Virus record (IMG/VR): IMGVR_UViG_3300042557_001811
Location: 1-46,742 of that record
Source: a virus
Length of the DNA: 46,742 bases
Direction: 5' to 3' (one strand)
Part shown: one piece after another, positions 5,701 to 40,235 of the stretch
Layout: every line of letters starts with the position of its first letter
How positions within the stretch are numbered: position 1 is the stretch's first letter
Position numbers and translations under genes: made by a program
Notes under the pieces: model-generated
Told to the model about the DNA's origin: nothing
Databases searched by the model: none
Seen by the model: only the letters and a program-made list of their open reading frames with translations

Positions 5701-6216
5701 ATGCTAAATCCTGAACAAATTAAAACTATTATTAAAGAAGAACAAATAAATAATTTGAGATTTCGTGAAGAGCGATATGCATATTATGGAATATTACAAG
5801 AGTATCAACTGCATAGCTCTGATGAATTGAGGCGTTTGGATTATTCAAAATTGAATCCACAACAACATTTTCTATTTAAACGAGTATTGCATGGTTTAAA
5901 TATTTACACTGTAGAAGAGCAAAATGCACTTCACTGGGATAAAAAGAAAAGGATTAAAAAAGTTTGGCAAAGAGGTCAAGAGGTTATAAACAATTGGAAA
6001 CAATACATTGTAAATAAAAGAGTTAATGATTATCTTTATAAAGTTTTTGGTGAAAATGTAAGAGCAATAATAAATGTACCAGTTGATGAGTATTTACCGG
6101 ATTATAAAAACACTTTAAGTTTAAAGGATCTTGGTTTAACTTATGAAGATGTTATATTAAAATTTATGTCTGAAGGACTTTTACCTAAAAACTTTTTAAC
6201 GTTAAAAGGCAATTGA
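5701..6216 (+). CDS. Hypothetical protein (171 aa)
   Basis: A 171-residue, highly charged and mostly helical protein. An N-terminal region rich in Arg and Tyr (LRFREERYAYYG) is followed by a central basic segment (WDKKKRIKKVWQRG) and a C-terminal part that looks globular. It has no signal peptide or membrane helix. It is the first gene after the terminator. Its TGA overlaps the TTG start of the HNH nuclease, so the two are coupled. The basic helices would suit nucleic-acid binding, but I do not recognise the family. Confidence 0.65.
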   Translation: MLNPEQIKTIIKEEQINNLRFREERYAYYGILQEYQLHSSDELRRLDYSKLNPQQHFLFKRVLHGLNIYTVEEQNALHWDKKKRIKKVWQRGQEVINNWKQYIVNKRVNDYLYKVFGENVRAIINVPVDEYLPDYKNTLSLKDLGLTYEDVILKFMSEGLLPKNFLTLKGN

Positions 6217-6482
6217 AAATAAATAAATTTTCAAAAAAAATGGTTAAACTTAACTCTGAGTATTCAAAGTTAAGAAAGATACATTTGGATACTTATCCAA
6301 TGTGTCAAGCTAAAATTTATAACTGTTTTTTAAAATCAACTGAAATACATCACATGAAAGGACGTGGTAAGTATCATAATGATACTTCCACGTGGCTTTC
6401 TGTGTGTAGAAATTGCCATAGATGGATTGAAGAACACCCAAAAGAAGCAATAGAATTAAATTTATCACAATCAAAATTTTAA
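6213..6482 (+). CDS. HNH endonuclease domain protein
   Basis: An 89-residue protein that is essentially one HNH nuclease domain. Cys31 and Cys38 form the first zinc pair. EIHHMKGRGKYHNDTSTWLS holds the catalytic histidine pair (46-47) and the asparagine. Cys65 and Cys68 in CRNCHRWIEEHP form the second zinc pair. Small HNH proteins of this kind cut DNA in phage packaging, recombination or homing. I choose the TTG start coupled to the upstream TGA because the lysine-rich part before the first ATG (6240) looks like the N-terminus of related proteins. With the ATG start it would be 80 residues. It is not beside any terminase gene here. Confidence 0.8.
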   Translation: MKINKFSKKMVKLNSEYSKLRKIHLDTYPMCQAKIYNCFLKSTEIHHMKGRGKYHNDTSTWLSVCRNCHRWIEEHPKEAIELNLSQSKF

Positions 6483-6769: not shown

Positions 6770-6965
6770 TACAAAAATAATTATTGTTTTATTGTTTATA
6801 CTTAGTGCCTGTACTAATAATAGACCTTGGACTGTTATTGAAATCAGGACTAAAGGAAAAAAATGCGAGTATGTGTTGTCCCGCTCCAACGGATTCGGGC
6901 CTCAAGTCAAGACCCTGACCGATACCTGTGGGAGGTATCAGTTGTTTCAAACATTAAACTTATGA
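6750..6965 (+). CDS. Small lipoprotein
   Basis: A 71-residue protein with a hydrophobic leader and lipobox LSAC (lipidation at Cys21 if translated from the first of two adjacent ATGs). The mature part (WTVIEIRTKGKKCEYVL to CGRYQLFQTL) has two further cysteines. It resembles short lipoproteins I associate with other Bacteroidota phages. Base composition changes within the gene: the first 110 bases are as AT-rich as the upstream genes, but from about 6860 the sequence becomes much richer in G and C, marking the left edge of the accessory region. Confidence 0.7.
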   Translation: MMKKIINTKIIIVLLFILSACTNNRPWTVIEIRTKGKKCEYVLSRSNGFGPQVKTLTDTCGRYQLFQTLNL

Positions 6966-6966
6966 T

Positions 6967-7140
6967 ATGGAATTTATTGGAATACATGTTGCTTACGAAC
7001 CAAACGCATGGTTTTGGATTACATTACTAAACTTTGATTGGAAAGACCAAAGCAGAAGTTTTTTACATATTGAGAAAAATGACAGCGTTTGGAAGTTTCA
7101 GTTTTTATGGTTGTCAAATAACTGTTGGATTATCGGCTAA
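6967..7140 (+). CDS. Small hypothetical protein (57 aa), first array gene
   Basis: A 57-residue frame starting 1 base after the lipoprotein stop. The product is very rich in tryptophan and other aromatic residues (EPNAWFWITLLNFDW, VWKFQFLWLSNNCW). It has no clear transmembrane helix, as charges are scattered through it. It ends GGC TAA, directly before the first copy of the repeated intergenic element, as do several other genes of this array. Family not recognised. Confidence 0.55.
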   Translation: MEFIGIHVAYEPNAWFWITLLNFDWKDQSRSFLHIEKNDSVWKFQFLWLSNNCWIIG

Positions 7141-7147
7141 TTGCTAC

Positions 7148-7170
7148 CAACTCGCTCATTCGTGAACCCA
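7148..7170 (+). repeat. Intergenic array repeat, copy 1
   Basis: ACTCGCTCATTCGTGAACC (7150-7168), followed by CGTCAGCCTCT and a C/A-rich leader running into the ATG at 7208. The same core recurs at 7681, 7995 (diverged), 8296 and 8579. It lies just after one small ORF and before the next. Confidence 0.75.
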
Positions 7171-7207
7171 CCGTCAGCCTCTAACCTTACCAACCAACCC
7201 CAAACCT

Positions 7208-7399
7208 ATGAAACGATTTTTAGTATTTGCAGGTGATTGCTATTATCCCTTTGGTGGGATGAATGATTTTCAGGAGGACTTTGACACCTTGGAAGAGGCA
7301 AGAAGTTTTGTAGCAAAAATCAAAGAAAAGTGGGAATCTGATTGGGAGGACTTCAAATGGACTGCCATTTGGGATTTGGAAACACGAACCCACGTTTAA
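7208..7399 (+). CDS. Small hypothetical protein (63 aa)
   Basis: A 63-residue protein (MKRFLVFAGDCYYPFGGMND, then EEARSFVAKIKEKWE). The pattern of a short beta strand, a DFDTLEEA turn and one helix, ending in WTAIWDLETR, is common in small phage and bacterial proteins of unknown role. It is the second gene in the cassette-like array, with a C/A-rich leader (CCAACCCCAAACCT) and no Shine-Dalgarno sequence. Confidence 0.65.
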   Translation: MKRFLVFAGDCYYPFGGMNDFQEDFDTLEEARSFVAKIKEKWESDWEDFKWTAIWDLETRTHV

Positions 7400-7407
7400 T
7401 ATGCAAG

Positions 7408-7476
7408 AGCATATAATGAATGAGAAATCGGTCAATAAGCACCCTTATCGCATATAATGAATGATTAATCCGTCAG
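7408..7476 (+). repeat. Diverged tandem copy of array intergenic sequence
   Basis: GCATATAATGAATGA occurs twice, at 7409 and 7451. The second copy runs into AATCCGTCAGCC, the same ending as the other intergenic elements. It stands between two small genes and looks like a diverged, duplicated form of the array repeat. Confidence 0.55.
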
Positions 7477-7484
7477 CCCATAGC

Positions 7485-7691
7485 ATGAAAACGATATACT
7501 TTCAACCAAAGGGAATAAACCCAAAATTTTGCGAAGCAGGTGTCATTCACGAAAGCGACAATGAATCTATCTGCTACTTAGGTGAACCTTGCAAAATATC
7601 AATTAATGATGTAAAAATCATACCAAACGAGAGCGTCGCTTATGATGAAAAAAATGGGTTATATCTTGTTCGGGAAAGTACTCATTCGTGA
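7485..7691 (+). CDS. Small hypothetical protein (68 aa), stop supplied by repeat
   Basis: A 68-residue protein (MKTIYFQPKGINPKFCEAG). I use the ATG at 7485. An in-frame ATG at 7461 exists, but the eight codons between them are the repeat-derived leader. The last codons (ACT CAT TCG TGA) are part of the repeat core itself, so the repeat provides the stop codon and the last residues of the protein. This suggests the repeat was joined onto the 3' end of an older frame. Function unknown. Confidence 0.55.
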   Translation: MKTIYFQPKGINPKFCEAGVIHESDNESICYLGEPCKISINDVKIIPNESVAYDEKNGLYLVRESTHS

Positions 7692-7749
7692 ACAAATCGT
7701 CAGCCTCTGTTCTTACCAAACCTCCCCCAGCGTCAGCCTATAAGCTGAC
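7681..7749 (+). repeat. 69-bp direct repeat, left copy
   Basis: This block is the same as 8585-8653 apart from one base (A for C after CGTGAAC). It starts CTCATTCGTGAAC, passes through CGTCAGCCTCTGTTC and ends in the hairpin GTCAGC-CTATAA-GCTGAC (7732-7749). Such near identity in a fast-changing region points to a recent duplication or gene conversion. Confidence 0.9.
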
Positions 7750-7775
7750 CAATTAAACCTTAAAACCTAAATAAA

Positions 7776-7997
7776 ATGACACAAGAACAAAGTAATAATG
7801 CCAATGTGCTGTTATGTGATGTTTGGGTTCGGGCAGATAAGCCTGTTAGAGAATATCCTTTGGGAACGAAATTCAAAGCCTTAATGGGTGGATATTGGAT
7901 AAGAGTTGAACGAGGGTTTAAATGGTGTACTGGTTCAACGTTCCCAAATGTCGGAGGTGATTGGACTGGCGAAGTGTGTCTGCCAAATATCATATAA
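7776..7997 (+). CDS. Small hypothetical protein (73 aa)
   Basis: A 73-residue protein with many tryptophans and glycines (GGYWIRVERGFKWCTG, PNVGGDWTGEV), probably a small beta barrel. Its start follows the GTCAGC hairpin by 26 bases. Its stop TAA is the first part of the next repeat core (TAACTCGC). Member of the cassette-like array. Family not recognised. Confidence 0.65.
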   Translation: MTQEQSNNANVLLCDVWVRADKPVREYPLGTKFKALMGGYWIRVERGFKWCTGSTFPNVGGDWTGEVCLPNII

Positions 7998-8049
7998 CTC
8001 GCTTATTTGTGAAGTTCGCCCACAACAAATCGTCAGCCCACACGCTGAC
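7995..8049 (+). repeat. Intergenic array repeat, diverged copy
   Basis: TAACTCGCTTATTTGTGAAG (7995-8014), then CAAATCGTCAGCC and a hairpin GTCAGC-CCACAC-GCTGAC at 8032-8049. Stem and position match the 69-bp copies while the loop differs, which is what a conserved structure would look like. Confidence 0.7.
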
Positions 8050-8063
8050 AAAACTTAAATAGA

Positions 8064-8297
8064 ATGACAAGAGAAAAATTTATAAAAAAGTGGCTTAGTA
8101 ATAAAGACTACCAATACACAGAACAAAACCGAGATTTAATGCGAAATGATTTAGACGAGGTGATAAACCAAGCATTGCGCCAACCGCTTGTTAGCAGTTC
8201 GGTTTGTCATTGCAACAACCTTCCTGACGGAGAAATAGCCATTAGTAGTAAAGCACTTCAAAGACCTTATGGTGATTTGGGGCAAACTGACTGCTAA
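8064..8297 (+). CDS. Small hypothetical protein (77 aa), chimeric C-terminus
   Basis: A 77-residue protein. The first 42 residues (TREKFIKKWLSNKDYQYTEQ, then NRDLMRNDLDEVINQAL) resemble a small charged phage protein. From residue 43 the coding sequence lies inside an inverted-repeat element (8190-8298), so the cysteine-containing C-terminal 35 residues appear to come from inserted DNA. The stop TAA is the end of the element and also the start of the next repeat core. The original frame may have ended near codon 42. Function unknown. Confidence 0.55.
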   Translation: MTREKFIKKWLSNKDYQYTEQNRDLMRNDLDEVINQALRQPLVSSSVCHCNNLPDGEIAISSKALQRPYGDLGQTDC

Positions 8298-8298
8298 C
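8190..8298. repeat. Inverted-repeat element with attC-like ends
   Basis: GTTAGCAGT (8190-8198) pairs perfectly with ACTGCTAAC (8290-8298). After one unpaired T, CGGTTTGTC (8200-8208) pairs with GGCAAACTG (8281-8289) with two G-T pairs. The loop is 72 bases. A two-box stem with one extra-helical base and GTTAGCA/TGCTAAC ends recalls the R and L boxes of integron attC sites, although here the boxes face the inside-out way. Confidence 0.6.
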
Positions 8299-8314
8299 TC
8301 GCTCATTCGTGAAC
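8296..8314 (+). repeat. Intergenic array repeat, short copy
   Basis: AACTCGCTCATTCGTGAACC, directly joined to the end of the inverted-repeat element. It lacks the CGTCAGCC part. Instead, 22 bases later the left end of the next inverted repeat (TTAGCACC at 8337) begins. Confidence 0.7.
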
Positions 8315-8336
8315 CCAACCAAACTATACGCAATCA

Positions 8337-8580
8337 TTAGCACCAGTTTTTATTATGGCAGATTACTTTATAGAAGAAAATGAATTGACAAAGCAAATGT
8401 TTGATTTAGACGAAATACTTGCTTTTCAACTCGAAAATGATGTTCAGATTATTTGTGGTGAGGACTATCAATATATGTGCTACATCAACAAATCAGTTTA
8501 TGCAACAGGATTAACACCGATGTTTGCTTTGGCTTATGGTGTCAAAGTCTTTAAGGAGCGTTCTTAAAAATTGGTGCTAA
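8337..8580. repeat. ORF-containing unit with 15-bp terminal inverted repeats
   Basis: TTAGCACCAGTTTTT (8337-8351) pairs over all 15 positions with AAAAATTGGTGCTAA (8566-8580), with one G-T pair. The unit holds exactly one gene: ATG lies 3 bases after the left repeat and the stop TAA is inside the right repeat. The outer TTAGCA/TGCTAA matches the ends of the element at 8190-8298. It looks like a mobile gene cassette. Confidence 0.65.
8355..8567 (+). CDS. Small hypothetical protein in inverted-repeat unit (70 aa)
   Basis: A 70-residue acidic protein (MADYFIEENELTKQMFDLDE). A central beta-like stretch is followed by a C-terminal helix (MFALAYGVKVFKERS). It is the only gene of the unit bounded by 15-bp inverted repeats, and its stop codon overlaps the right repeat. 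No promoter is visible within the unit, so expression must come from upstream, as for integron cassettes. Family not recognised. Confidence 0.65.
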   Translation: MADYFIEENELTKQMFDLDEILAFQLENDVQIICGEDYQYMCYINKSVYATGLTPMFALAYGVKVFKERS

Positions 8581-8653
8581 CTCGCTCATTCGTGAACCAA
8601 TCGTCAGCCTCTGTTCTTACCAAACCTCCCCCAGCGTCAGCCTATAAGCTGAC
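8579..8653 (+). repeat. Intergenic array repeat with 69-bp direct repeat, right copy
   Basis: The core AACTCGCTCATTCGTGAACC is followed by the same sequence as 7681-7749 with one difference, ending in the hairpin GTCAGC-CTATAA-GCTGAC at 8636-8653. It is the last recognisable copy in the array. The gene at 8701 follows after a 47-base C/A-rich leader. Confidence 0.9.
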
Positions 8654-8700
8654 ATAAAATACTCAAAACCACGCAAATTGTCCCATAAAAGACCAAAACC

Positions 8701-8949
8701 ATGAAAACCCCAGTACAAACGCTAATTGACAACCTGTATAATCACGAGTATCATATTGACATCTTGGGTGTCGCTCAATTCCATGGGTATTTTGAGCAGG
8801 CATTAAAGGCTGAAAAGCAGCAAATTGTTAATGCTTATTTGATAGGAATCATAAGCAGTCTTGAAATGCCAGCATCAGAGCAAGCAGAACAATACTATCA
8901 AGAAAACTTTGAATCTAATTCCTCAAATAACCAAACCCCAAACCCATGA
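8701..8949 (+). CDS. Small hypothetical protein (82 aa)
   Basis: An 82-residue helical protein (MKTPVQTLIDNLYNHEYHID) with a motif near residues 40-75 (EKQQIVNAYLIGI, then AEQYYQENF) that I associate with a common short protein family of Bacteroidota phages. Its last residues (SNNQTPNP) are encoded by C/A-rich sequence of the type normally found in the leaders of this region, so the true end may once have been a few codons earlier. It overlaps the next gene by 4 bases. Confidence 0.65.
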   Translation: MKTPVQTLIDNLYNHEYHIDILGVAQFHGYFEQALKAEKQQIVNAYLIGIISSLEMPASEQAEQYYQENFESNSSNNQTPNP

Positions 8950-9347
8950 AACCAGACCCCAAACTGATTGACTCTATGGCGATGAGATATAGGCACGATT
9001 TTGGTTTATTAGACCAAGCTCAAAAAGACTCCATTAGAGTAACTATGACTCAACTTTGGGAAGAAGTTGTGGGTCTTGGTTTTTACAAAGCCGAAAAAAA
9101 CCCCCCAACCCCTAAACTTAAATCAACCATGAAACATGTAGTAAAAACTTATTTAGACGATGGTAGGATATTCAAATATGAAGTTGATTCTGCTGAAAAA
9201 GTTCGTGAACATGCATCTGCAATTGTCAAGGACGGATACAGACACAATGATGGGGAAGTATTTGAACACTACCCACCACATAGAATTCTGAAGGTAAAAA
9301 GTGAAAACATACCAACCAATTATCCTGATATAGTAGAAGGCACTTAA
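8946..9347 (+). CDS. In-frame fusion of two small proteins (133 aa)
   Basis: A 133-residue frame that looks like two separate genes joined. Residues 1-50 are a small helical protein (LDQAQKDSIRVTMTQLWEE). Residues 51-61 (KNPPTPKLKST) are a translation of the C/A-rich leader that precedes other genes here. From Met62 (ATG at 9129) a second protein begins (MKHVVKTYLDDGRIFKYEVD) with a PHRILKV ending. A single lost stop would explain it. The second part may also be made on its own from 9129. Neither half is recognised by function. Confidence 0.6.
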   Translation: MKPDPKLIDSMAMRYRHDFGLLDQAQKDSIRVTMTQLWEEVVGLGFYKAEKNPPTPKLKSTMKHVVKTYLDDGRIFKYEVDSAEKVREHASAIVKDGYRHNDGEVFEHYPPHRILKVKSENIPTNYPDIVEGT

Positions 9348-9380
9348 TATGTTAATTCTCCCAATCTAAACAACAAAACT

Positions 9381-9539
9381 ATGAGTAAGAAATTCTATAA
9401 ATTGACATGGGGTGGTGGTATGGCTCAAATTTGTTGCGGCAAAGTAGAAACGCACACCATCCTATTTGAACTCCTTGAACAAGGCCAATCCGTGAAAGTT
9501 GTGCAAATTGAAAAAAACATCATAAACTCCAAACCGTAA
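9381..9539 (+). CDS. Small hypothetical protein (52 aa)
   Basis: A 52-residue protein (MSKKFYKLTWGGGMAQICCG) with a Gly-rich turn and two adjacent cysteines, followed by a helix and a final strand. The start follows a C/A-rich leader like its neighbours and the stop is 10 bases before the next gene. Family not recognised. Confidence 0.5.
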   Translation: MSKKFYKLTWGGGMAQICCGKVETHTILFELLEQGQSVKVVQIEKNIINSKP

Positions 9540-9549
9540 ACCAAAAGTG

Positions 9550-9864
9550 ATGGCAAAAACTAAATCAAAGGACGATAATAGCACTATTTGTTTTGAAACA
9601 TTTAAGAAGATTGGGGCTTATGAACAATCCATTTTGGAAAAAAAAGACGCAACCTGTTTTAACGGAGAGGTAAACATTCACAAGTACAAGGTTACCGTTG
9701 AGCCAATAGAAGAACCAAAAGAAGTACTTGCCGAAAGGTTACAAAAACTATGGGATGAGTGCGATAATCACCATCATTGGAATCCATTACAAGAAGCTGC
9801 CGAGGAAATTGGATATGAACTAAAGGGTTCGTTTGGTAGTCTTCGTAAAAAAAAATATCAATAA
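9550..9864 (+). CDS. Small hypothetical protein (104 aa)
   Basis: A 104-residue protein. The N-terminal part is basic and acidic mixed. Residues 45-95 carry EEPKEVLAERLQKLWDECDN and a histidine cluster (HHHW), followed by EEIGYELKGSFG. This C-terminal helical motif is one I have seen in short proteins of Bacteroidota phages. An in-frame GTG one codon earlier exists, but the ATG at 9550 is the likelier start. Role unknown. Confidence 0.65.
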   Translation: MAKTKSKDDNSTICFETFKKIGAYEQSILEKKDATCFNGEVNIHKYKVTVEPIEEPKEVLAERLQKLWDECDNHHHWNPLQEAAEEIGYELKGSFGSLRKKKYQ

Positions 9865-9890
9865 TCTCTAAAATTTAAATCAATAAACTA

Positions 9891-9992
9891 ATGAACTTTG
9901 AATCTCTTATTGAACTTGCTCTTTCAGTTGGTCGTGTAGTACTGACTTTGATTTTTATTATCTGCATCTTAACACTCATTTTTACGCAATGA
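9891..9992 (+). CDS. Tiny membrane protein (33 aa)
   Basis: A 33-residue product with one transmembrane helix covering residues 13-31 (VGRVVLTLIFIICILTLIFT) after a short acidic start. Its TGA overlaps the ATG of the following lipoprotein gene (ATGA), which strongly suggests translational coupling and a real gene. The two may work together at the host envelope. Confidence 0.55.
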   Translation: MNFESLIELALSVGRVVLTLIFIICILTLIFTQ

Positions 9993-10222
9993 AACAAACA
10001 TTCCTCCTTATCAGTGCACTGCTATTGACTATTCTTTCTTGCGGTTGCCGTGAAGTAAATACCCCTAGAAAGGGTACCGAATTTGTGTTAATAGAAGGCG
10101 CTAATCCATTAATCATAGTAGAGGTGGATAGTTGTGAGTACTTATTTGGCGATTGGGGTCATGCAACAGTATTAACCCACAAAGGGAATTGCAAATTCTG
10201 TTTAGAGCGCAACAAGAAATAA
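9989..10222 (+). CDS. Small lipoprotein
   Basis: A 77-residue protein with the signal peptide MKQTFLLISALLLTILSC and lipidation at Cys18. The mature part contains several further cysteines (CGCRE, DSCEY, NCKFC) that could form disulphides, and ends in a basic tail. It is coupled to the tiny membrane protein upstream. It is probably exported to the periplasmic face of a membrane. Role unknown. Confidence 0.7.
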   Translation: MKQTFLLISALLLTILSCGCREVNTPRKGTEFVLIEGANPLIIVEVDSCEYLFGDWGHATVLTHKGNCKFCLERNKK

Positions 10223-10257
10223 TTAACCTCAAATTCTTTAACTTTAACCTATAAATT

Positions 10258-10485
10258 ATGTGGCAAAAATGTCCAATTTGCAAGGGTACTGGCGGTACGC
10301 CTGGTGCCTTTTCTAGCTCTTGCCCAACCTGTAATGGAGCAAGAATTATTTCAGAAATAACAGGCTTACCTCCTAAACATATTGAGCAGGAAAAAATAAA
10401 ATGTACCGGCAATGATGGAAATGGATGCTTTTTAAATTCTTGTGGTCATAACTGCGGATGCTTAGGCATACAGCCCAAACCCTAA
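10258..10485 (+). CDS. Zinc-finger protein, DnaJ-like cysteine repeats
   Basis: A 75-residue protein with CPICKGTGGTPG and CPTCNGARI, two CxxCxG-type repeats like the zinc-binding region of DnaJ, about 15 residues apart. A C-terminal cysteine-rich part follows (CTGNDGNGCFLNSCGHNCGC). It probably binds one or two zinc ions. Small proteins of this kind in phages are often annotated only as zinc fingers. A chaperone-like or nucleic-acid-binding role would be a guess. Confidence 0.65.
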   Translation: MWQKCPICKGTGGTPGAFSSSCPTCNGARIISEITGLPPKHIEQEKIKCTGNDGNGCFLNSCGHNCGCLGIQPKP

Positions 10486-10490
10486 AACCT

Positions 10491-10706
10491 ATGATAAAGA
10501 TTAAAGTTGAAGTAGAGTTTGAAATTGATAATGAAATCTGGGGAGCAGAATCCAAAGATATTTCGGAGAAGAAATGGTTTTGGGACACAATCCTCCCAAC
10601 AAGTATCATAATTCTACATAGCAATGAGTGCGGAGATACCATAAGCCAAACCTCCAAATTCGTCATTAAAGAAATAAACAAAACCCCGGACCATCAAACT
10701 AATTGA
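10491..10706 (+). CDS. Small hypothetical protein (71 aa)
   Basis: A 71-residue protein starting MIKIKVEVEFEIDNEIWGAE, with an alternating strand pattern at first and an aromatic middle (KKWFWDTILP). I choose the ATG at 10491, 5 bases after the preceding stop. A longer frame from 10458 would lie inside the previous gene. Family not recognised. Confidence 0.55.
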   Translation: MIKIKVEVEFEIDNEIWGAESKDISEKKWFWDTILPTSIIILHSNECGDTISQTSKFVIKEINKTPDHQTN

Positions 10707-11148: not shown

Positions 11149-11483
11149 TGTTAGAAAAAGAATTTGTACCCTACGAACCATCTTTAGCACTCAAAGAACT
11201 TGGGTTTGATGAACCTTGTTTTGGAACATATTTAAGTTCCTTTCAAAGTAATTGGAAGGTATATGAATTGATACTTGAAATGGGTATGAATGAGGAGTTT
11301 GAAGATAATAGAAATGTCTACCTTTTAGAAGGGGCTTGTTCTGCACCAACATTCTCACAAGCAATAAATTTTTTGTATATTTATAGTAATAAACAAATAG
11401 ACATTGAATTAAAGGCAAGTGATAATTATGAAGAAAGAGTTAGAAAAATTAATCAAGGATGTAAAGATTTGCGGAATCTATAA
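11148..11483 (+). CDS. Hypothetical phage protein, paralogue B, truncated by nuclease gene
   Basis: A 111-residue relative of the preceding protein. SLALKELGFDEPCFGTYLS and TFSQAINFLYIYSNKQIDIE align with its counterpart regions, but the usual C-terminus (the SPTEAYEAAIE-like helix of paralogue A) is missing. Instead the frame runs 56 bases into the GIY-YIG gene and ends RKINQGCKDLRNL, which is simply the nuclease gene read in another frame. Insertion of the nuclease gene has apparently cut off the 3' end. Confidence 0.6.
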   Translation: MLEKEFVPYEPSLALKELGFDEPCFGTYLSSFQSNWKVYELILEMGMNEEFEDNRNVYLLEGACSAPTFSQAINFLYIYSNKQIDIELKASDNYEERVRKINQGCKDLRNL

Positions 11484-12147
11484 AATAACAAGTCCAACTG
11501 ATAGGGTTTACATAGGTCAATCTAATGATTTAATTAGAAGAAAGAAAGATTATGAAAAGTATATTAAAAATTCTAATAGACAAGTAAAACTTTTAGCTTC
11601 TATAAATAAATACACTTGGGAAAAACATTTCTTTGAAATAATTGAAGAATGTGTTTTTAATGATTTAAATATTAGAGAACGCTTTTGGCAGGAACATTAT
11701 AATTCTGTTGAAAAAGGACTTAACTGTATCTATACTAAAACAAATGAAAAACCTTCTGTATTTGGGAGTGAGACAAAAGAAAAAATGAAAATTGCACAAA
11801 CAGGTAGTAAAAAATCTAAAATGACAAAAGAAAAAATGTCTAAGATTAGAATAGGCTATAAATTTACAGAAGAAGCTAAATTAAAAATGTCAAATTCAAG
11901 AAAAGGAATAAAATATTCTAAAGAAACTATTGACAAAATGAAGATAGCAGCTTCTAAAAGAAATTTAAAACCTATTTCTTGTTTGTGTCCTAATAATACA
12001 TATTTTGAATTTAACAGTTTTAAAGAAGCTGCATTACATATAGGAGTTAAACCACAATCAATTCAACAAGCAGTCTCTAAAAACAGACCTTGTAAAGGAT
12101 GGAAAATTTTTAAATTAATTCAAATCGTAAAACAAAACAAACAATGA
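11428..12147 (+). CDS. GIY-YIG homing-type endonuclease with NUMOD-like repeats
   Basis: A 239-residue protein. The GIY-YIG nuclease domain is at residues 13-100: GIY at 16-18, YIG at 28-30, arginine just after (NDLIRRKKDY) and the metal-binding glutamate in RERFWQEHY. A linker of three or more repeated basic motifs follows (SETKEKMKIAQTGSKKSKMT, TEEAKLKMSNSRKGIKYS, KETIDKMKIAASKR), typical of the DNA-binding NUMOD3 repeats of SegA/I-TevI-type homing enzymes. It ends with a helix-turn-helix NUMOD1-like segment (FNSFKEAALHIGVKPQSIQQ). It is free-standing, with no intron seen. I use ATG 11428. It has cut into the gene before it. Confidence 0.9.
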   Translation: MKKELEKLIKDVKICGIYKITSPTDRVYIGQSNDLIRRKKDYEKYIKNSNRQVKLLASINKYTWEKHFFEIIEECVFNDLNIRERFWQEHYNSVEKGLNCIYTKTNEKPSVFGSETKEKMKIAQTGSKKSKMTKEKMSKIRIGYKFTEEAKLKMSNSRKGIKYSKETIDKMKIAASKRNLKPISCLCPNNTYFEFNSFKEAALHIGVKPQSIQQAVSKNRPCKGWKIFKLIQIVKQNKQ

Positions 12148-14081: not shown

Positions 14082-15176
14082 ATGTCAATTAAAAAAGATT
14101 CAGTACAAGAACAAGCATTAAGTATTATAGAAAATTATAAAAAATGTAGTGTTGGTATTTCAATGGGTGTAGGTAAAACTAGAATTGGAATAAAACATTT
14201 AATAAAAAACTATCATGTTTTTATAAAGGTTTTAGTGGTAATACCAAAACTTTCAATAAAAGATTCTTGGCATACAGAATTAAAAAAAATGGAAGTTGAA
14301 TTTTTACAAGATCATATAACTTTTACCACTTATCTTTCTTTAAATAAAAAAGATCCAAATGATTATGATATAGTATATTTAGATGAATGCCATAATATTC
14401 TACCACATCATGAAAACTTTCTTAATAACTATAATCAAAAGCTACTTGGTTTAAGCGGAACATTACCGGTTTTTCAAAATAGTGAAAAGTATAAGCTAAT
14501 TCAAAAACATTGTCCAACTGTATTTAAATTTTCAGTTGATGAAGCTACAGAGCAAAAAATACTAAATGATTATCGGATTGTAGTACATAAACTTAATTTA
14601 AATAAGTTAAAAACACTTAAGAAAAAAACAAAAGCTGGTAAATTTTGGTACACATCTGAATATAACGATTATACTAGATTATCAAATCTTTTAGAAGAAG
14701 CTGAAACTCCCAAACAAAAACAATTTTATTCTATTTTTAGAATGCGAGCTTTAATGAGTTATCCAACTAAAGAAGAATATTTGGTTAGTATATTAAATGA
14801 TATAAACGATAAATGTATTATATTTGCTAATACTCAAGAGCAAGCAGATAGAATTTGTAAACACAGTTATCACTCAAATAATGATAATTCTGAAGAAAAT
14901 TTAAGACTGTTTAAAGAAGGTACAATAAAAAAATTGTCTTGTATAGCACAACTAAATGAAGGTGTATCAATACCAGAACTTAAAGTGGGAATTATAATGC
15001 ATTCTTATGGTAATGAAAGAAAATCTACACAAAGAATTGGAAGACTTTTAAGATTAAATCCTGATCAAATATCTGTTTGCCATATACTTTGTTATAAAGA
15101 TTCAGTTGATGAGATATGGGTTGATAAAGCACTTGAAGGTTTAGATAAATCAAAAATAGAATACTTAACTTATTAA
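14082..15176 (+). CDS. SF2 helicase (SNF2/DEAD-like)
   Basis: A 364-residue superfamily 2 helicase. Motif I is GISMGVGKTR (GVGKT at 29-33), motif II VYLDECHN near residue 100 (DECH, a DEAH-type box) and motif III GLSGTLP. The second RecA fold includes KCIIFANTQEQADRI and motif VI STQRIGRLLR near residue 325. At this length it is nearly only the two RecA domains. Helicases of this compact SNF2-like type belong to the replication and recombination set of crAss-like and other phages, acting on branched DNA or displacing proteins. It is the first gene of the replication block. Confidence 0.9.
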   Translation: MSIKKDSVQEQALSIIENYKKCSVGISMGVGKTRIGIKHLIKNYHVFIKVLVVIPKLSIKDSWHTELKKMEVEFLQDHITFTTYLSLNKKDPNDYDIVYLDECHNILPHHENFLNNYNQKLLGLSGTLPVFQNSEKYKLIQKHCPTVFKFSVDEATEQKILNDYRIVVHKLNLNKLKTLKKKTKAGKFWYTSEYNDYTRLSNLLEEAETPKQKQFYSIFRMRALMSYPTKEEYLVSILNDINDKCIIFANTQEQADRICKHSYHSNNDNSEENLRLFKEGTIKKLSCIAQLNEGVSIPELKVGIIMHSYGNERKSTQRIGRLLRLNPDQISVCHILCYKDSVDEIWVDKALEGLDKSKIEYLTY

Positions 15177-15177
15177 T

Positions 15178-15438
15178 ATGATACGCGATTTAAATGACCT
15201 TGATTACATAAAAAGAAAAACAGTTGAAGAATGTTGTGAATTATCACATGCTTTGATGCAAAGTATAAATAAACCTAAACTAGATAATTGTAAACAAATT
15301 GAAGATGAAATAGCAGATTTACTAATGTGGTTAAAACAATTAACTGCATACTATAATAATGATTATATTGTTAATAGAATAATAGAAAAAAAACAAATTT
15401 ATTTTAAAGATGAAAAAATTAAATCCGATAATATCTGA
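15178..15438 (+). CDS. MazG-like nucleotide pyrophosphohydrolase
   Basis: An 86-residue helical protein with the MazG metal-binding pattern: VEECCELSHAL (ExxE) near residues 16-26 and QIEDEIADLLMWL (ExxD) near 40-52. Small MazG-like enzymes cleave dNTPs or alarmones to monophosphates and pyrophosphate. In phages they may keep the nucleotide pool clean or lower (p)ppGpp. A second MazG-like gene is at 31217. It starts 1 base after the helicase and overlaps the next gene by 29 bases. Confidence 0.75.
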   Translation: MIRDLNDLDYIKRKTVEECCELSHALMQSINKPKLDNCKQIEDEIADLLMWLKQLTAYYNNDYIVNRIIEKKQIYFKDEKIKSDNI

Positions 15439-19111: not shown

Positions 19112-19795
19112 ATGGCACATAGTATATTAGTGATCGCAGAATCTGGTTCTGGTAAATCAACATCCATCAGGAATTTAGATCCAAAAGAAACAGTAATTGT
19201 TAATATTGCAAATAAACCTTTACCATTTAAAGGTTGGAAGAGTAAATATAAAACGTTAAACAAAGAAAATCCAGATGGAAATTTAGTAAATGTATCTTCA
19301 GGGCCCGGTGTTATGAAAACAATGGCCCACGTAAATGAAAAAATGCCACATATCAAAAATTTAATTATTGATGACTGGCAGTATATGTCAAGCTTTGAGT
19401 ACTTTGATAAAGCGTCTGAAAAGGGATATGATAAATTTACATCTATTGCAGCTAATCTAGCTGCAGTAGCAAAATATCCTAAAGACTTGAGAGAGGACTT
19501 ATATATATTTTTTCTGACCCATTCTGAAGATAGCACGGATATTAATGGTAAAAGAAAAATTAAAGCTAAAACAGTGGGTAAAATGATTGATAATGCTCTT
19601 ACATTAGAGGGTCTATTCTCAATTGTATTATTCGGTAAAGTAATTAAACAAGAAGATGGTAGTTTATCATACGTGTTTGCAACCAAAACAGATGGTGAAA
19701 CAACATGTAAAACACCAATGGAAATGTTTGATCAGGAATTTATTCCTAATGATTTGGCATTTGTAAAAGAATGCATTAAAAAATATGAAAATTAA
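19112..19795 (+). CDS. Sak4-like RecA-type ATPase (phage recombinase)
   Basis: A 227-residue P-loop protein with Walker A IAESGSGKST at residues 8-17, Walker B KNLIIDDWQYM near residue 90 and a sensor-like IFFLTHSED near 140. After it comes KRKIKAKTVGKMIDN, then the FATKTDGE segment. This is the pattern of phage nucleotide-binding proteins called Sak4 or AAA_24, minimal RecA-like single-strand annealing ATPases. They work with an SSB, and here the SSB gene follows 17 bases later. It anneals or exchanges strands in phage recombination and repair. Confidence 0.8.
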   Translation: MAHSILVIAESGSGKSTSIRNLDPKETVIVNIANKPLPFKGWKSKYKTLNKENPDGNLVNVSSGPGVMKTMAHVNEKMPHIKNLIIDDWQYMSSFEYFDKASEKGYDKFTSIAANLAAVAKYPKDLREDLYIFFLTHSEDSTDINGKRKIKAKTVGKMIDNALTLEGLFSIVLFGKVIKQEDGSLSYVFATKTDGETTCKTPMEMFDQEFIPNDLAFVKECIKKYEN

Positions 19796-29211: not shown

Positions 29212-31215
29212 ATGAATCATTGGGTAATGGACTACGAAACGCTGAAAAACTGTTTTGTTGCAGTTTTTGAGCACTATAAAAATTCTGAAAGAAAAGTTTT
29301 TGTTGTTCATGATCTCAGAAATGAATTTGAAAACTTTGTTAATTTTATAATAAAGAATAAAGAAAATAAAGAATGGCATATATCATATAATGGTCTGGCC
29401 TTTGACAGCCAAATCACACATTATATTTTAGATAATTATAAGCTATGGCAAAATTTAACCGGTTGCGAAATAGCTGAAATAATTCATCTTTATGCTGCAA
29501 AATGCATTAATAAAAACGACAACAAAGAGTTTCAAGATTATGCACCCTTTAAAATGAAAATAGGTCAAATTGACCTATTTAAAATGAATCACTGGGATAA
29601 TCCTCAAAAACTATCTAGTTTAAAATGGATACAGTATAGTATGGATTGGGATAATATTTTAGAAATGCCCATTCACCATGAAACTATAATTACAACTGAA
29701 ACAGAAATAAATACAATTATTGATTATTGTGCAAATGACGTTTTATCAACTAAAGAAATTTACAACCAATCTCAATCTCAAATAAAATTAAGAAAAGATT
29801 TAAGTAAAAAATATGATGTTAACTTATTTAGCGCATCAGAGCCTAGAATAAGTAAAGAAATTTTTTTATACTACTTATCTCAAAAACTAAATATTCCTAA
29901 AAAGGATATTAAAAAGATGCGTAGTTATAGAACTACTATCAAACTATCAGATTTAATTTTAAACTATATACAATTTGAGTCAAAAGAGTTTAAGTCCCTT
30001 TTAGATAAATTTAAAACAATAGAAGTAAAGGCTGATAATCTAAAAGGCAGTTTTAAATATTCAATGAAATACAAAAATGTAACCACTCATTTTGGCTTAG
30101 GTGGTGTACATGCTGCAAATAAATCAGGTGTATATAAATCAGATAAAGATTATGTAATTATAACGTCTGATGTAATAAGCTTTTATCCTAATTTAGCAAT
30201 TAAGAATTCTTGGGCTCCAGGGCACTTTCCTACAAAAGAGTTTTGTGATCAATATGAATGGTTTTTTAATGAAAGAGTTAAAATTCCAAAAAAGGATATT
30301 ATGAACTATGTTTTCAAAATCGTTCTAAATTCTACATTTGGTTTAAGTAATGAAAAAGACAGTTTCTTTTATGATCCGGAGTTTACTATGAAAGTAACAG
30401 TTAACGGGCAGCTTAATCTTATGATGCTCTATGAAATGATTATGGAAAATATTCCTGAGGCACAAGCATTAATGCAAAATACAGATGGTATAGAAACTAA
30501 AATTCCTAGAATATATTATGAAAAATATATGGAAATATGTCATAAATGGGAACAAATAACGAATCTTAAATTAGAACATAATGAATATCAAACACTTATT
30601 TTGAGTGATGTAAATAATTATATTGCTTTAAATAATTACAAAGAGATTGATTTATATGAATGGGGAAAACTAAAAAAAGAATTTCCGCATTATTTATTTA
30701 AAGTTGAAGACTCTAAATATATGTATGCTCCTTGTAAATTAACAGGTAGGTTTGATTTTCATAACTTAGCGCTCCATAAAAACAAATCAACACTAATTGT
30801 ACGTAAAGCTATATACTATTATTTTATACATAATATTTTACCTAATGATTACTTGGAAAGTAATAAAAATATTTTGGACTACTGTATAGGAAAAAAGTCT
30901 AAAGGACAGTGGAAACAAGTTGCACGATTTGTAAAAGATAACTCTTATTTTGAAAAAGAAATTCAAAAGATTAATAGATATTATATTTCTAAAAGTGACC
31001 ACCTAGAATCTTGTAAAATAACCAAGATAAATAAAGAAGATGGTAGAGAAATACAATTAGAAGCCGGTCAATGGATGCAAGTACTATTTAACAAAATAGA
31101 AATTAAACCAAAATGGGATTTATATAAAATAAATCAAAACTATTATTTTCAGTTAATTGAATCAGAAATAGAAAATATAATTAATTACAAATCACAACAA
31201 CTTAAACTATTTTAA
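29212..31215 (+). CDS. Family B DNA polymerase with 3'-5' exonuclease
   Basis: A 667-residue polymerase. Exo I is VMDYETLKN (Asp7, Glu9), Exo II SYNGLAFDSQI near residue 60 and Exo III DYCANDVLST near 173. Polymerase motif A is ITSDVISFYPNLAIKN near 320, motif B YVFKIVLNSTFGLSN near 371 and motif C MQNTDGIET near 423 (a variant of DTDS). The gap between motifs A and B is very short. The last 200 residues form the thumb and a basic C-terminus. It is smaller than T4-type enzymes and may be similar in size to polymerases of crAss-like phages. It is the probable replicative polymerase, with proofreading. Confidence 0.92.
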   Translation: MNHWVMDYETLKNCFVAVFEHYKNSERKVFVVHDLRNEFENFVNFIIKNKENKEWHISYNGLAFDSQITHYILDNYKLWQNLTGCEIAEIIHLYAAKCINKNDNKEFQDYAPFKMKIGQIDLFKMNHWDNPQKLSSLKWIQYSMDWDNILEMPIHHETIITTETEINTIIDYCANDVLSTKEIYNQSQSQIKLRKDLSKKYDVNLFSASEPRISKEIFLYYLSQKLNIPKKDIKKMRSYRTTIKLSDLILNYIQFESKEFKSLLDKFKTIEVKADNLKGSFKYSMKYKNVTTHFGLGGVHAANKSGVYKSDKDYVIITSDVISFYPNLAIKNSWAPGHFPTKEFCDQYEWFFNERVKIPKKDIMNYVFKIVLNSTFGLSNEKDSFFYDPEFTMKVTVNGQLNLMMLYEMIMENIPEAQALMQNTDGIETKIPRIYYEKYMEICHKWEQITNLKLEHNEYQTLILSDVNNYIALNNYKEIDLYEWGKLKKEFPHYLFKVEDSKYMYAPCKLTGRFDFHNLALHKNKSTLIVRKAIYYYFIHNILPNDYLESNKNILDYCIGKKSKGQWKQVARFVKDNSYFEKEIQKINRYYISKSDHLESCKITKINKEDGREIQLEAGQWMQVLFNKIEIKPKWDLYKINQNYYFQLIESEIENIINYKSQQLKLF

Positions 31216-34201: not shown

Positions 34202-34477
34202 ATGAAAACAATAGGACAACAAATTCTTATTGAACCACGAATGAAAACAAAAATTCACGTTAACCAACACCACATAAGGTCTAACAAAACAAAGGGAACT
34301 GATTTACCTGTCATTACTGTGAAACAAGGTAGAAAAAACACATATTGTAATGAAGTTGAAATTATGGGTCCAAGTAAAATTATTTATTGTGGTTCAGGAA
34401 CTGAAACAAAACCATTAATATCATGTGGCGCAAGAGTTGTAATTGAAACCGAATCTGAAATAAAAATAATAAAATGA
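34202..34477 (+). CDS. Hypothetical protein with TIGQQI start (91 aa)
   Basis: A 91-residue, lysine-rich beta-type protein (VITVKQGRKNTYCNEVEIMG, SCGARVVIETESEIKIIK). It begins MKTIGQQI, the same motif as the next two genes (MTQTIAQQI and MTQTIGQQI), although the rest is unrelated. A shared start may mark a common leader or domain. It overlaps the next gene by 4 bases. Confidence 0.6.
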   Translation: MKTIGQQILIEPRMKTKIHVNQHHIRSNKTKGTDLPVITVKQGRKNTYCNEVEIMGPSKIIYCGSGTETKPLISCGARVVIETESEIKIIK

Positions 34478-34839
34478 CACAAACAATAGCACAACAAATT
34501 AACTGGGATTTTAAGACCGATGGTTTTTTAGAAATCAAAGGCAAGAATGGTAAAAACATCTACTTTGAGGATCCAACTGGATTTTATGAAAAGTATAAAT
34601 ACGATTCTCAAGGCAATACAATTTACTATGAAAATTCAGATGGATATTGGGAAAAGCAGGAATACAATTCTGAAGGTAATCAAATATACTATGAAGATTC
34701 AAATGGTTTAATTGAAGACAACCGGCCCAAACCAATTCGTGAATTGACCCTTGAATCACTTGCTGAGGATGTCCACAAATTGAGTGAACTTATGACCCGA
34801 TTTGTAAATCAAGTAAACGAATCCAACACAATCAAATAA
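34474..34839 (+). CDS. YD-type short-repeat protein 1 (121 aa)
   Basis: A 121-residue protein. MTQTIAQQINWDFKTDGFLE is followed by three tandem 21-residue repeats of the form IYYENSDGYWEKQEYNSEGN (the third incomplete), similar in style to YD repeats, and then a helical tail with DVHKLSELMTRFVNQ. It is a paralogue of the next gene, which has one repeat fewer. I associate it with repeat families of Bacteroidota phages. The repeats probably form beta hairpins. Confidence 0.7.
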   Translation: MTQTIAQQINWDFKTDGFLEIKGKNGKNIYFEDPTGFYEKYKYDSQGNTIYYENSDGYWEKQEYNSEGNQIYYEDSNGLIEDNRPKPIRELTLESLAEDVHKLSELMTRFVNQVNESNTIK

Positions 34840-34854
34840 CCAATGCGTTAAAGT

Positions 34855-35226
34855 ATGACACAGACAATAGGACAACAAATCAAATGGGACTTTGAAGTAA
34901 ATGGAACTTTGGTAATTAAAGATAAAAATGGTAGACTAATCTACTTAGAGGATTCAGATGGAGATTGGGCAAAGTTTGAACGGGATACCGAAGGCAATGA
35001 AATCTACTTTGAGAATTCAAATGGTTACATCAACGACAACCGGCCCAAACCCTGTGAAAACAAAATTTATACAGAAAAAGAAGTTGAAAATCTTTTAATG
35101 ACACAAAGAGAAAATTGCTATGTGTCTATACTATCAGTAACAAACGATAAAAAGTTAGCTGAATTAGCAATAAAATCTCCAGAGCCTTGTAATTGGCGTA
35201 ATCAAATACAATCTGAAATACTTTAA
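34855..35226 (+). CDS. YD-type short-repeat protein 2 (123 aa)
   Basis: A 123-residue paralogue of the preceding gene. MTQTIGQQIKWDFEVNGTLV is followed by two repeats (IYLEDSDGDWAKFERDTEGN and IYFENSNGYINDNRPKP) and a different C-terminal helical half (YTEKEVENLLMTQRENCYVS). The two copies differ by one 63-base unit and in their C-termini, the signature of unequal recombination and tail swapping. Function unknown. Confidence 0.7.
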   Translation: MTQTIGQQIKWDFEVNGTLVIKDKNGRLIYLEDSDGDWAKFERDTEGNEIYFENSNGYINDNRPKPCENKIYTEKEVENLLMTQRENCYVSILSVTNDKKLAELAIKSPEPCNWRNQIQSEIL

Positions 35227-40019: not shown

Positions 40020-40235
40020 CTACTTCTTTTTAATAACTTTTTTAGCCGGCGCAGTTCCAATGCCAGATACCATTCCACCTAACATTTTAACTTGCTCTGC
40101 TGCAGCTCTTTTTACTTTTGATAGCAAAGCTTTATCTTTTTGAATTTCATTGTATCTGCTTATAGTGCTCATTGCAGATTCAATAGCCCATTTTTCTTCA
40201 CGTGCTTTGTCTTCTTTTGACATTTTCATTTTCAT
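40020..40235 (-). CDS. Small basic hypothetical protein (71 aa)
   Basis: A 71-residue, lysine- and methionine-rich protein. Its helical first two thirds (EDKAREEKWAIESAMSTISR, DKALLSKVKRAAAEQVKML) lead to a Gly-rich flexible end (GGMVSGIGTAPAKKVIKKK). It is adjacent to the spanin gene (no gap). I do not recognise the family. It resembles in character the other tiny basic proteins of this block. Confidence 0.6.
   Translation of the reverse strand: MKMKMSKEDKAREEKWAIESAMSTISRYNEIQKDKALLSKVKRAAAEQVKMLGGMVSGIGTAPAKKVIKKK

Follow-up and report, generated by a model that had tools for sequence, protein, structure and literature searches.

Repeated intergenic elements between small exchangeable genes are known from phage T4, as promoter and stem-loop elements (PeSLs), and from the lambdoid phages, as linkers, and both the lambdoid linkers and the T4 intergenic stem-loops have been proposed to let general recombination swap modules. 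We report on an array of small genes separated by such a repeat in IMGVR_UViG_3300042557_001811, a 46,742-bp virus contig that was analysed over its whole length (hereafter the window), and on the integron-like system to which the array appears to belong. Unlike the T4 PeSLs and the lambdoid linkers, the units in the window have paired end boxes and att-type sites.

The closest described systems are gene cassettes with attC sites but no integrase (clusters of attC sites lacking an integrase, CALINs), which are present in 21 phages and have GTTRRRY joints (Qi et al. 2023, PMC9892861). TJE1, H101 and P12002L carry attC sites that were tested with IntI1, and one of the two P12002L sites recombined with it (PMC9892861). 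Our array resembles these in combining integrase-less cassettes and putative attC-type sites inside a phage, P12002L among them being a Bacteroidota phage as well, and differs in its extended R boxes with a recurrent G.T mismatch, in the repetition of an attI-type site behind the cassettes, in the clade of integrases present in related phages, and in open reading frames (ORFs) that face the att site. In the 'reverse integron' of Treponema denticola (PMC4909258, PMC7691350) integrase and cassettes are transcribed one way, as in the Bacteroidota chromosomal arrays described below, whereas the phage version has the order cassettes, att site, integrase start, with the ORFs running toward the att site. 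From Bacteroidetes, integrase genes are known along with a single complete integron, that of Salinibacter ruber (IntegronFinder 2.0, PMC9024848); further context is published for Bacteroidetes integrons (PMC2426708, PMC8618304) and for the classes of tyrosine recombinases (PMC8138268). In the open PMC literature, with subscription papers and preprints outside the scope, we found no description of flipped cassettes or of such a phage integron lineage.

We put a probability of roughly 0.8 on the reading that the array consists of integron-type gene cassettes in a Bacteroidota phage, with the repeat core as an attI-type site of the same system. In an intact cassette the start box (R', GTTANNN..) would be complementary to the cassette's own end box (R'', ..TAAC). 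Sequence comparison supports this reading through the pairing of own boxes, the boundary after the AAC of R'', attC-like hairpins in related arrays, the likeness between the core and integrase-side sites, and integrases beside arrays. A first-pass annotation, made from the letters alone, had proposed an exchangeable, integron-like cassette array in a phage without an integrase, and each part of this held when tested, with the qualification that the lack of an integrase applies to the window phage and not to the system, since other phages and chromosomes carry an integrase by their arrays. The features of the array are as follows (window coordinates).

7132-7168, plus strand: end box (R'') of cassette gene 6967-7140 (..TTGCTACCAAC), then exact core copy 1
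7208-7399, plus strand: cassette ORF c3, 63 amino acids; several different genes precede it in other phages
7461-7691, plus strand: ORF, 76 amino acids, with its stop in the truncated core copy
7681-7749, plus strand: truncated core with the second linker module; 7695-7749 (55 bp) and 8599-8653 have the same sequence; left crossover partner in the comparison with the related phage G020
7776-7997, plus strand: cassette ORF c82, 73 amino acids
7811-7827, plus strand: start box (R') of c82, GTTATGTGATGTTTGGG; the upstream GCCAATGTGCT resembles the L' arm of other sites
7982-7998, plus strand: end box (R'') of c82, GCCAAATATCATATAAC; 14/17 complementary to the c82 start box
7996-8013, plus strand: core (putative attI-type site), variant AACTCGCTTATTTGTGAA; shares 18/20 positions with the integrase-side site in chromosome G062 when one flanking base per side is included
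8064-8297, plus strand: cassette ORF c16, 77 amino acids; start codon upstream of the c16 start box
8190-8206, plus strand: start box (R') of c16, GTTAGCAGTTCGGTTTG; L'-like GCGCCAACCGCTT before the box
8283-8298, plus strand: end box (R'') of c16, CAAACTGACTGCTAAC
8296-8313, plus strand: core (putative attI-type site), exact copy
8336-8352, plus strand: start box (R') of c44, ATTAGCACCAGTTTTTA
8355-8567, plus strand: cassette ORF c44, 70 amino acids; missing between c16 and c39 in contig L052
8565-8581, plus strand: end box (R'') of c44, TAAAAATTGGTGCTAAC
8579-8596, plus strand: core (putative attI-type site), exact copy
8599-8653, plus strand: second linker module, 55 bp; right crossover partner, the 904 bp between both copies being absent in G020
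8701-8949, plus strand: ORF c39, 82 amino acids; after c44 in the window and after c16 in L052
6700-13985, no strand: accessory region holding the array; absent from contigs L096 and L097, whose flanks join within about 105 bp
19112-19795, plus strand: Sak4-like single-strand annealing protein (phrog_2872, E 1.5e-60); candidate agent of linker recombination

The core ACTCGCTCATTCGTGAACC occurs exactly at 7150, 8297 and 8580, with a diverged copy, AACTCGCTTATTTGTGAA, at 7996 (2 mismatches) and a 5'-truncated one, CTCATTCGTGAAC, at 7681 within a 69-nt repeat that is 99% identical to 8585-8653; no match was obtained in 100 shuffles with up to 3 mismatches allowed. These copies bear out the claim of a core recurring between short unrelated ORFs, with the given positions 8296 and 8579 both low by one base. 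The stop codons at 7691, 7997 and 8297 lie inside the repeat, as had been claimed, and the G+C content, said to be above the phage average, is 39.6% in 7148-8653 against 30.1% for the window, a value reached by none of 453 sliding windows (1506 bp, step 100). A sigma-70-type scan, which is not suited to Bacteroidota promoters, gave 3 promoter-like sites where 4.9 were expected; within this limit it agrees with the statement that the genes have no promoter of their own, it gave no support to the core as a promoter, and it recognised no T4 PeSL-type promoter and stem-loop element in the window linkers.

The same 18-nt core is present, without mismatch, in 49 stretches of 48 other viral contigs, most of which are fragments. 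At a tolerance of up to 3 mismatches, at least two copies are present in 11 of these contigs (10 each in two of them) and a single one in 37, always on one strand per contig. Around 139 matches, two-base variants included, the neighbouring ORFs fall into 83 clusters; the choice of ORFs was mechanical, and some of the matches with 3 mismatches are due to chance. Representatives of 42 upstream clusters end alike, if degenerately, ahead of the core, and all 42 have T at position -8. From the 139 matches 44 non-redundant cassettes were retained (excluded were 68 as members of the same cluster, 12 for having more than one mismatch, 10 for lack of an ORF and 5 cut by contig ends). In a test anchored from -200 to near the gene end, the end box is complementary to the cassette's own start box at a score of at least 9 in 19 of the 44 cassettes, compared to 2.4 on permutation of ends over the start regions of other cassettes (maximum 9 in 5000 permutations), and at a score of at least 12 in 12 of them, compared to 0.29 (maximum 4). 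An unanchored complementarity search in the 150-bp start region made only 4 of the 44 stand out. The paired units in the window are c82 (7811-7827 with 7982-7998), c16 (8190-8206 with 8283-8298) and c44 (8336-8352 with 8565-8581), the same three that are absent from G020; for the cassette gene 6967-7140 no own start box was found at a score of at least 8. Moreover, the c16 homologue in contig L095 has both boxes altered, GTTATAAG and CTTATAAC in place of GTTAGCAG and CTGCTAAC, which is a compensatory change.

The pairing is also seen when the core is ignored. A core-blind scan that reads both strands gave 92 pairs of R'/R'' type compared to 20 in block-shuffled sequence, and 160 distinct pairs were collected at a score of at least 11. 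Position 11 has G opposite T in 56 of these and the mirror reading in 55, the two sets being largely the same units, and the remaining 49 have mostly A/A and T/T. For the 56 G.T pairs, pairing is near complete at positions 1-9 and 12-15 and is down to 20/56 at position 16.

Between R'' and the next R' we identified 29 complete sites in related arrays. The distance from AAC to GTT is 116-124 nt for 20 of them and 76-82 nt for another 5, and their arm complementarity is 10.8 compared to 5.2 on permutation (maximum 6.6 in 500). Among 57 homologous cassette pairs, which are not independent, similarity is lost within 5 nt after the AAC of R'' in 13 and within 5 nt before R' in none; 17 informative pairs reach further left, and five of the left extensions are 122-131 nt, approximately the length of the hairpin. 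This pattern of boundaries and left extensions suggests that the mobile unit reads as hairpin, R', gene and R''. Cutting of the unit at R', the arrangement in class 1 integrons, was rejected because the 13 boundaries lie at R''; read on the other strand, a cut at R'' corresponds to normal integron polarity with a reversed gene. One cassette has the core behind it in L084 and an attC arm in L089, and the same is seen for c33 in L020 and L219, which is the pattern expected of the last and an internal cassette of one array. The core as the L'' arm of attC, an option raised by c24-c11 in L081, was rejected since last end boxes are followed by T and internal ones by G.

Arrays with an enzyme beside them were found in Bacteroidota chromosomes. 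Genome G115 has 14 same-direction cassettes (score at least 10) that end 93 nt from a tyrosine recombinase of 347 amino acids, and G433 has 9 cassettes beside a frameshifted homologue of this enzyme (G433:C2:150830-151870), so the G433 integron may be inactive. The G115 recombinase scores above the cut-off of NF040815 (site-specific tyrosine recombinase/integron integrase; 225.5 bits, cut-off 220) and below that of TIGR02249 (integron integrase; 210.8 vs 265, in two stretches), and the solved structures nearest to it include XerA and IntI4. Homologues are present in 97 of 395 Bacteroidota genomes (E 1e-60; 39% identity or more), and at the best 30 loci a cassette lies beside the integrase stop in 16, all in one direction, and on the far side in 0/30. 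Of 20 other integrases (of 27 loci), 1 had a cassette there, and that one is a 47-residue fragment, 72% identical. Few Bacteroidota integrons were reported with IntegronFinder 2.0 (PMC9024848), in contrast to these 97 genomes and 16 loci.

When sites are chosen solely on box pairing, T follows the last R'' before the chromosomal integrase in 16/16, with TTATA or similar at +5 to +9, and G follows internal R'' boxes in 4/4. Core copies have T at this base, as integrase-side sites do, and core variants match a matrix built from the 16 chromosomal ones (p 6.5e-5 to 5e-3), which generic attC arms fail to do. In chromosome G062, TCGCTTAATTGTGAGG comes after the R'' GGCACATAAC, which has an R' with a complementarity score of 14, and lies approximately 70 nt from the stop codon of an integrase homologue (45% identity); taken with TAAC, this site matches the window sites at 7996 and 8297 at 18/20 and 15/20 positions, respectively. 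Among core-like 20-mers in the 395 genomes, the G062 site alone shares a contig with, and adjoins, an integrase homologue of those listed, and an exact 19-mer gave 0 matches in bacterial genomes. In sequence, the core resembles an integrase-side (attI-type) site more than an attC spacer.

The window record and 17 related contigs have no match to PF00589, i.e. no integron integrase gene goes with the array there, and the earlier statement that no integrase is visible is right for the window record and for its near-identical 117,886-bp relative, G020. One of 27 further phage records does have a PF00589 match: in L220 an integrase of 265 amino acids, 43% identical to the G115 enzyme, lies behind an array. 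Its relatives are present in 38 viral loci. At the 34 viral loci with at least 300 nt upstream of the integrase (some of these contigs are near-duplicates), cassettes lie there in 32, with 124 facing the integrase, 1 reversed and 0 behind it. The cassette ORFs at these loci run toward the att site in 118/124 and away from it in 6. In phages, R'' is followed by T at 14 of the 15 distinct integrase-side sites (e.g. TATTATATATACACAC) and by G at 94 of 100 others. The integrase columns R131, H215, R218, H241 and Y250, which we take to be the active site, are conserved, and in a midpoint-rooted tree the phage (35) and chromosomal (29) integrases separate. Terminase genes are present in four of the sampled phage-integrase contigs and a family B polymerase lies next to the integrase in one; phrog_2 (terminase large subunit) was detected in 11 of 25 records searched, three weakly, with the window and G020 not among the 11. 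The viral contigs that bear the system range up to 265,845 bp.

Cassette ORFs in the phage arrays run toward the att site in 60/64 (1 away, 3 unclear), whereas in the chromosomes 40/44 run away from it (both counts include nested and duplicate units), which argues that phage cassettes hold the gene reversed relative to host cassettes. The start codon of a phage cassette is often upstream of R' and the stop lies in or just before the R'' box. We consider it rather probable that Bacteroidota phages own a dedicated integron lineage, in which the array ends downstream with an att site (AAC followed by TATTATATATACACACC, or variants of it) that has an integrase of mostly 263-269 amino acids directly behind it, and in which cassette ORFs are flipped relative to host cassettes, so that a captured gene would at once be co-transcribed with the phage operon and end at the att site; integrase-less phages, the window phage among them, would keep and trade cassettes via the repeated att sites.

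Gene order in related phages is not fixed, as the cassette proposal implied. The same upstream gene has varying successors: c2 is followed by c9, c13, c16, c38 or c51, and c4 by c0, c3 or c7. Between loci (the breaks are not independent of one another) the start of similarity is 6.9-fold enriched at -20 to 0 of the core, with 0/584 breaks at -150 to -20, and its end is 3.8-fold enriched at +18 to +40 (677 breaks); further bins also show enrichment, e.g. for right breaks at -300 to -150 (3.3-fold) and +200 to +300 (2.6-fold), approximately where the neighbouring joints lie. Units are present or absent between repeat copies in the closest relatives. G020 is 99.9-100% identical to the window over 45.9 kb and lacks 904 bp, i.e. 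units c82, c16 and c44, with the crossover point inside 55 identical bases of the repeated linker; this difference may be an assembly error, and loss by G020 or gain by the window both fit. L052 has the order c2-c16-c39 where the window has c82-c16-c44-c39, L095 (flanks 97-99.6%) has different units between 6960 and 8930 save one c16 relative, and two relatives (L096, L097) are without the entire 7.3-kb accessory region. Occurrence of the repeat just once per genome elsewhere, which the first-pass annotation had named as speaking against its proposal, is true of no group as a whole but holds for the 37 single-copy records, most of them fragments.

Several observations weigh against the reading of the array as integron-type cassettes with an attI-type core. 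Neither the window record nor G020 has an integrase, and the pairing of boxes is kept in 3 window cassettes only. The window linkers show L'-like stretches before R' only, and no complete L''/L' hairpin was seen in them. The R' boxes mostly depart from the canonical GTTRRRY, with T or C at position 5 in 24/56 and C or T at position 6 in 33/56 units; those of the window read GTTATGT, GTTAGCA and ATTAGCA and do not fit it. The core variants fit the 16-site matrix at no better than the p values given above and are without its TATA, and core-like 20-mers with 2 mismatches (in 22 of the 395 Bacteroidota genomes) are no commoner than a reversed control (32 matches). Among the informative homologous pairs 6 reach further right than left. 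The sole near-identical unit difference, that to G020, is a crossover of homologous and not of integrase type, and the contigs are metagenomic, many of them fragments. Given linkers without a complete hairpin and pairing in three cassettes, the att-type sites of the window may be inactive, and, the phage being without an integrase, its array looks like an integrase-less, partly degraded derivative of the integron family.

Of the alternatives, the one that fares best, although we regard it as unlikely, is that phages acquired ordinary bacterial integron cassettes (CALINs) and that nothing here is phage-specific. Phage CALINs are already published (PMC9892861), and the published carrier P12002L (KR136259) has, among 7 pairs, three units at a score of at least 12 with the same extended pairing and G.T mismatch (14622-15197, plus strand; 30952-31120 and 40047-40154, minus strand); that article gives divergent site directions for this phage. 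In the other attC carriers, TJE1 and H101, no G/A unit reaches a score of 11, the cut-off applied here; TJE1 has no pair at score 10, and H101 has one G/A pair at that score, without pairing at 12-15. Acquisition of ordinary cassettes is also at odds with the direction of the ORFs, toward the att site in phages (118/124 and 60/64) and away from it in chromosomes (40/44), and with phage integrases that form a clade of their own.

Less probable still, as an account of the whole, is that the repeats are phage linkers only, where short intergenic homologies let general recombination swap modules and no site-specific system is involved. Linkers are widely common to phages, the window phage has a Sak4-like annealing protein, and the difference between the window and G020 is a crossover between 55-bp identical repeats; the comparison makes present-day reshuffling of the window array look at least partly due to homologous recombination, and linker recombination is probably right for part of it. 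It leaves without explanation the complementarity between own start and own end in 19/44 cassettes, the recurrent G.T, the boundary after the AAC of R'' and the integrases next to the same structures. Gene-carrying transposons or miniature inverted-repeat transposable elements are hardly credible, since imperfect inverted repeats of approximately 15 nt do bound the units but the boxes vary between units while being complementary within a unit, so that terminal repeats are not conserved between copies, approximately 120 nt accompany the gene on just one of its sides, and no Y1 transposase was found in 18 contigs (other transposases were not searched).

If the array is of the integron type, as we favour, the core directly after R'' would correspond to the attI-type site beside the integrase, where cassettes join. 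Capture would have been by an integrase of the same family supplied by another phage or by the host, and the window phage may have lost its integrase or never had one. Its att site may have become repeated by the joining of single units through shared linkers, and present-day movement of units would, in addition, rely on homologous recombination or single-strand annealing between these linkers. A phage cassette ORF would begin in or near the hairpin and end at the att site, and with that end the array would be readable as one operon from upstream.

The window contig has a replication module with genes for a DnaB-like helicase, a primase, a DNA polymerase and the Sak4-like annealing protein, and also a ribonucleotide reductase gene. 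As to function of the window cassettes, no PHROG was assigned to four proteins, and among seven there was one doubtful short Pfam match; no known RNA family was found in 6900-10500. The CGTCAGCC module is present at 7695-7749, 8030-8051 and 8599-8653 with a small inverted repeat (GTCAGC/GCTGAC), and a terminator-like site is predicted at 8030-8051 on the minus strand. Another linker module, GCATATAATGAATGA..AAATC, has two copies at 7409-7475 and is also present in linkers of L017, L018, L051 and L054. Neither the second linker module (CGTCAGCC..) nor the ATATAATGAATGA module is accounted for by the cassette reading. Genes for a GIY-YIG homing endonuclease (11419-12147) and an HNH endonuclease (6213-6482) lie near the accessory region. 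Elsewhere, ORF 143-1870 (575 amino acids) has internal repeats of approximately 95 nt (867-961 and 1125-1219, 81% alike), seen as off-diagonal matches to L024 and L094, and two 114-nt stretches (34620-34733 and 34938-35051, 76% alike) in the adjacent ORFs 34474-34839 and 34855-35226 are probably tandem paralogues. A sequence-pattern search was discarded as evidence, with 13 matches where approximately 30 were expected by base count; one of the 13 is L177 (G054:C57), a 54,948-bp phage genome (SU10-type capsid, terminase) inside a Bacteroidales metagenome-assembled genome, whose contig carries 8 cassettes close to one of its ends and gave no match to PF00589.

The turnover of small accessory genes in phages is mostly ascribed to chance recombination, and the system described here would offer a concrete capture platform with defined ends, an att site and an enzyme. 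The departure from GTTRRRY may explain why searches based on that motif miss such arrays. Two ideas become testable, namely that phages have their own pool of cassettes to draw from and that the flip of the gene in the cassette suits capture to a phage operon rather than to an integron promoter.

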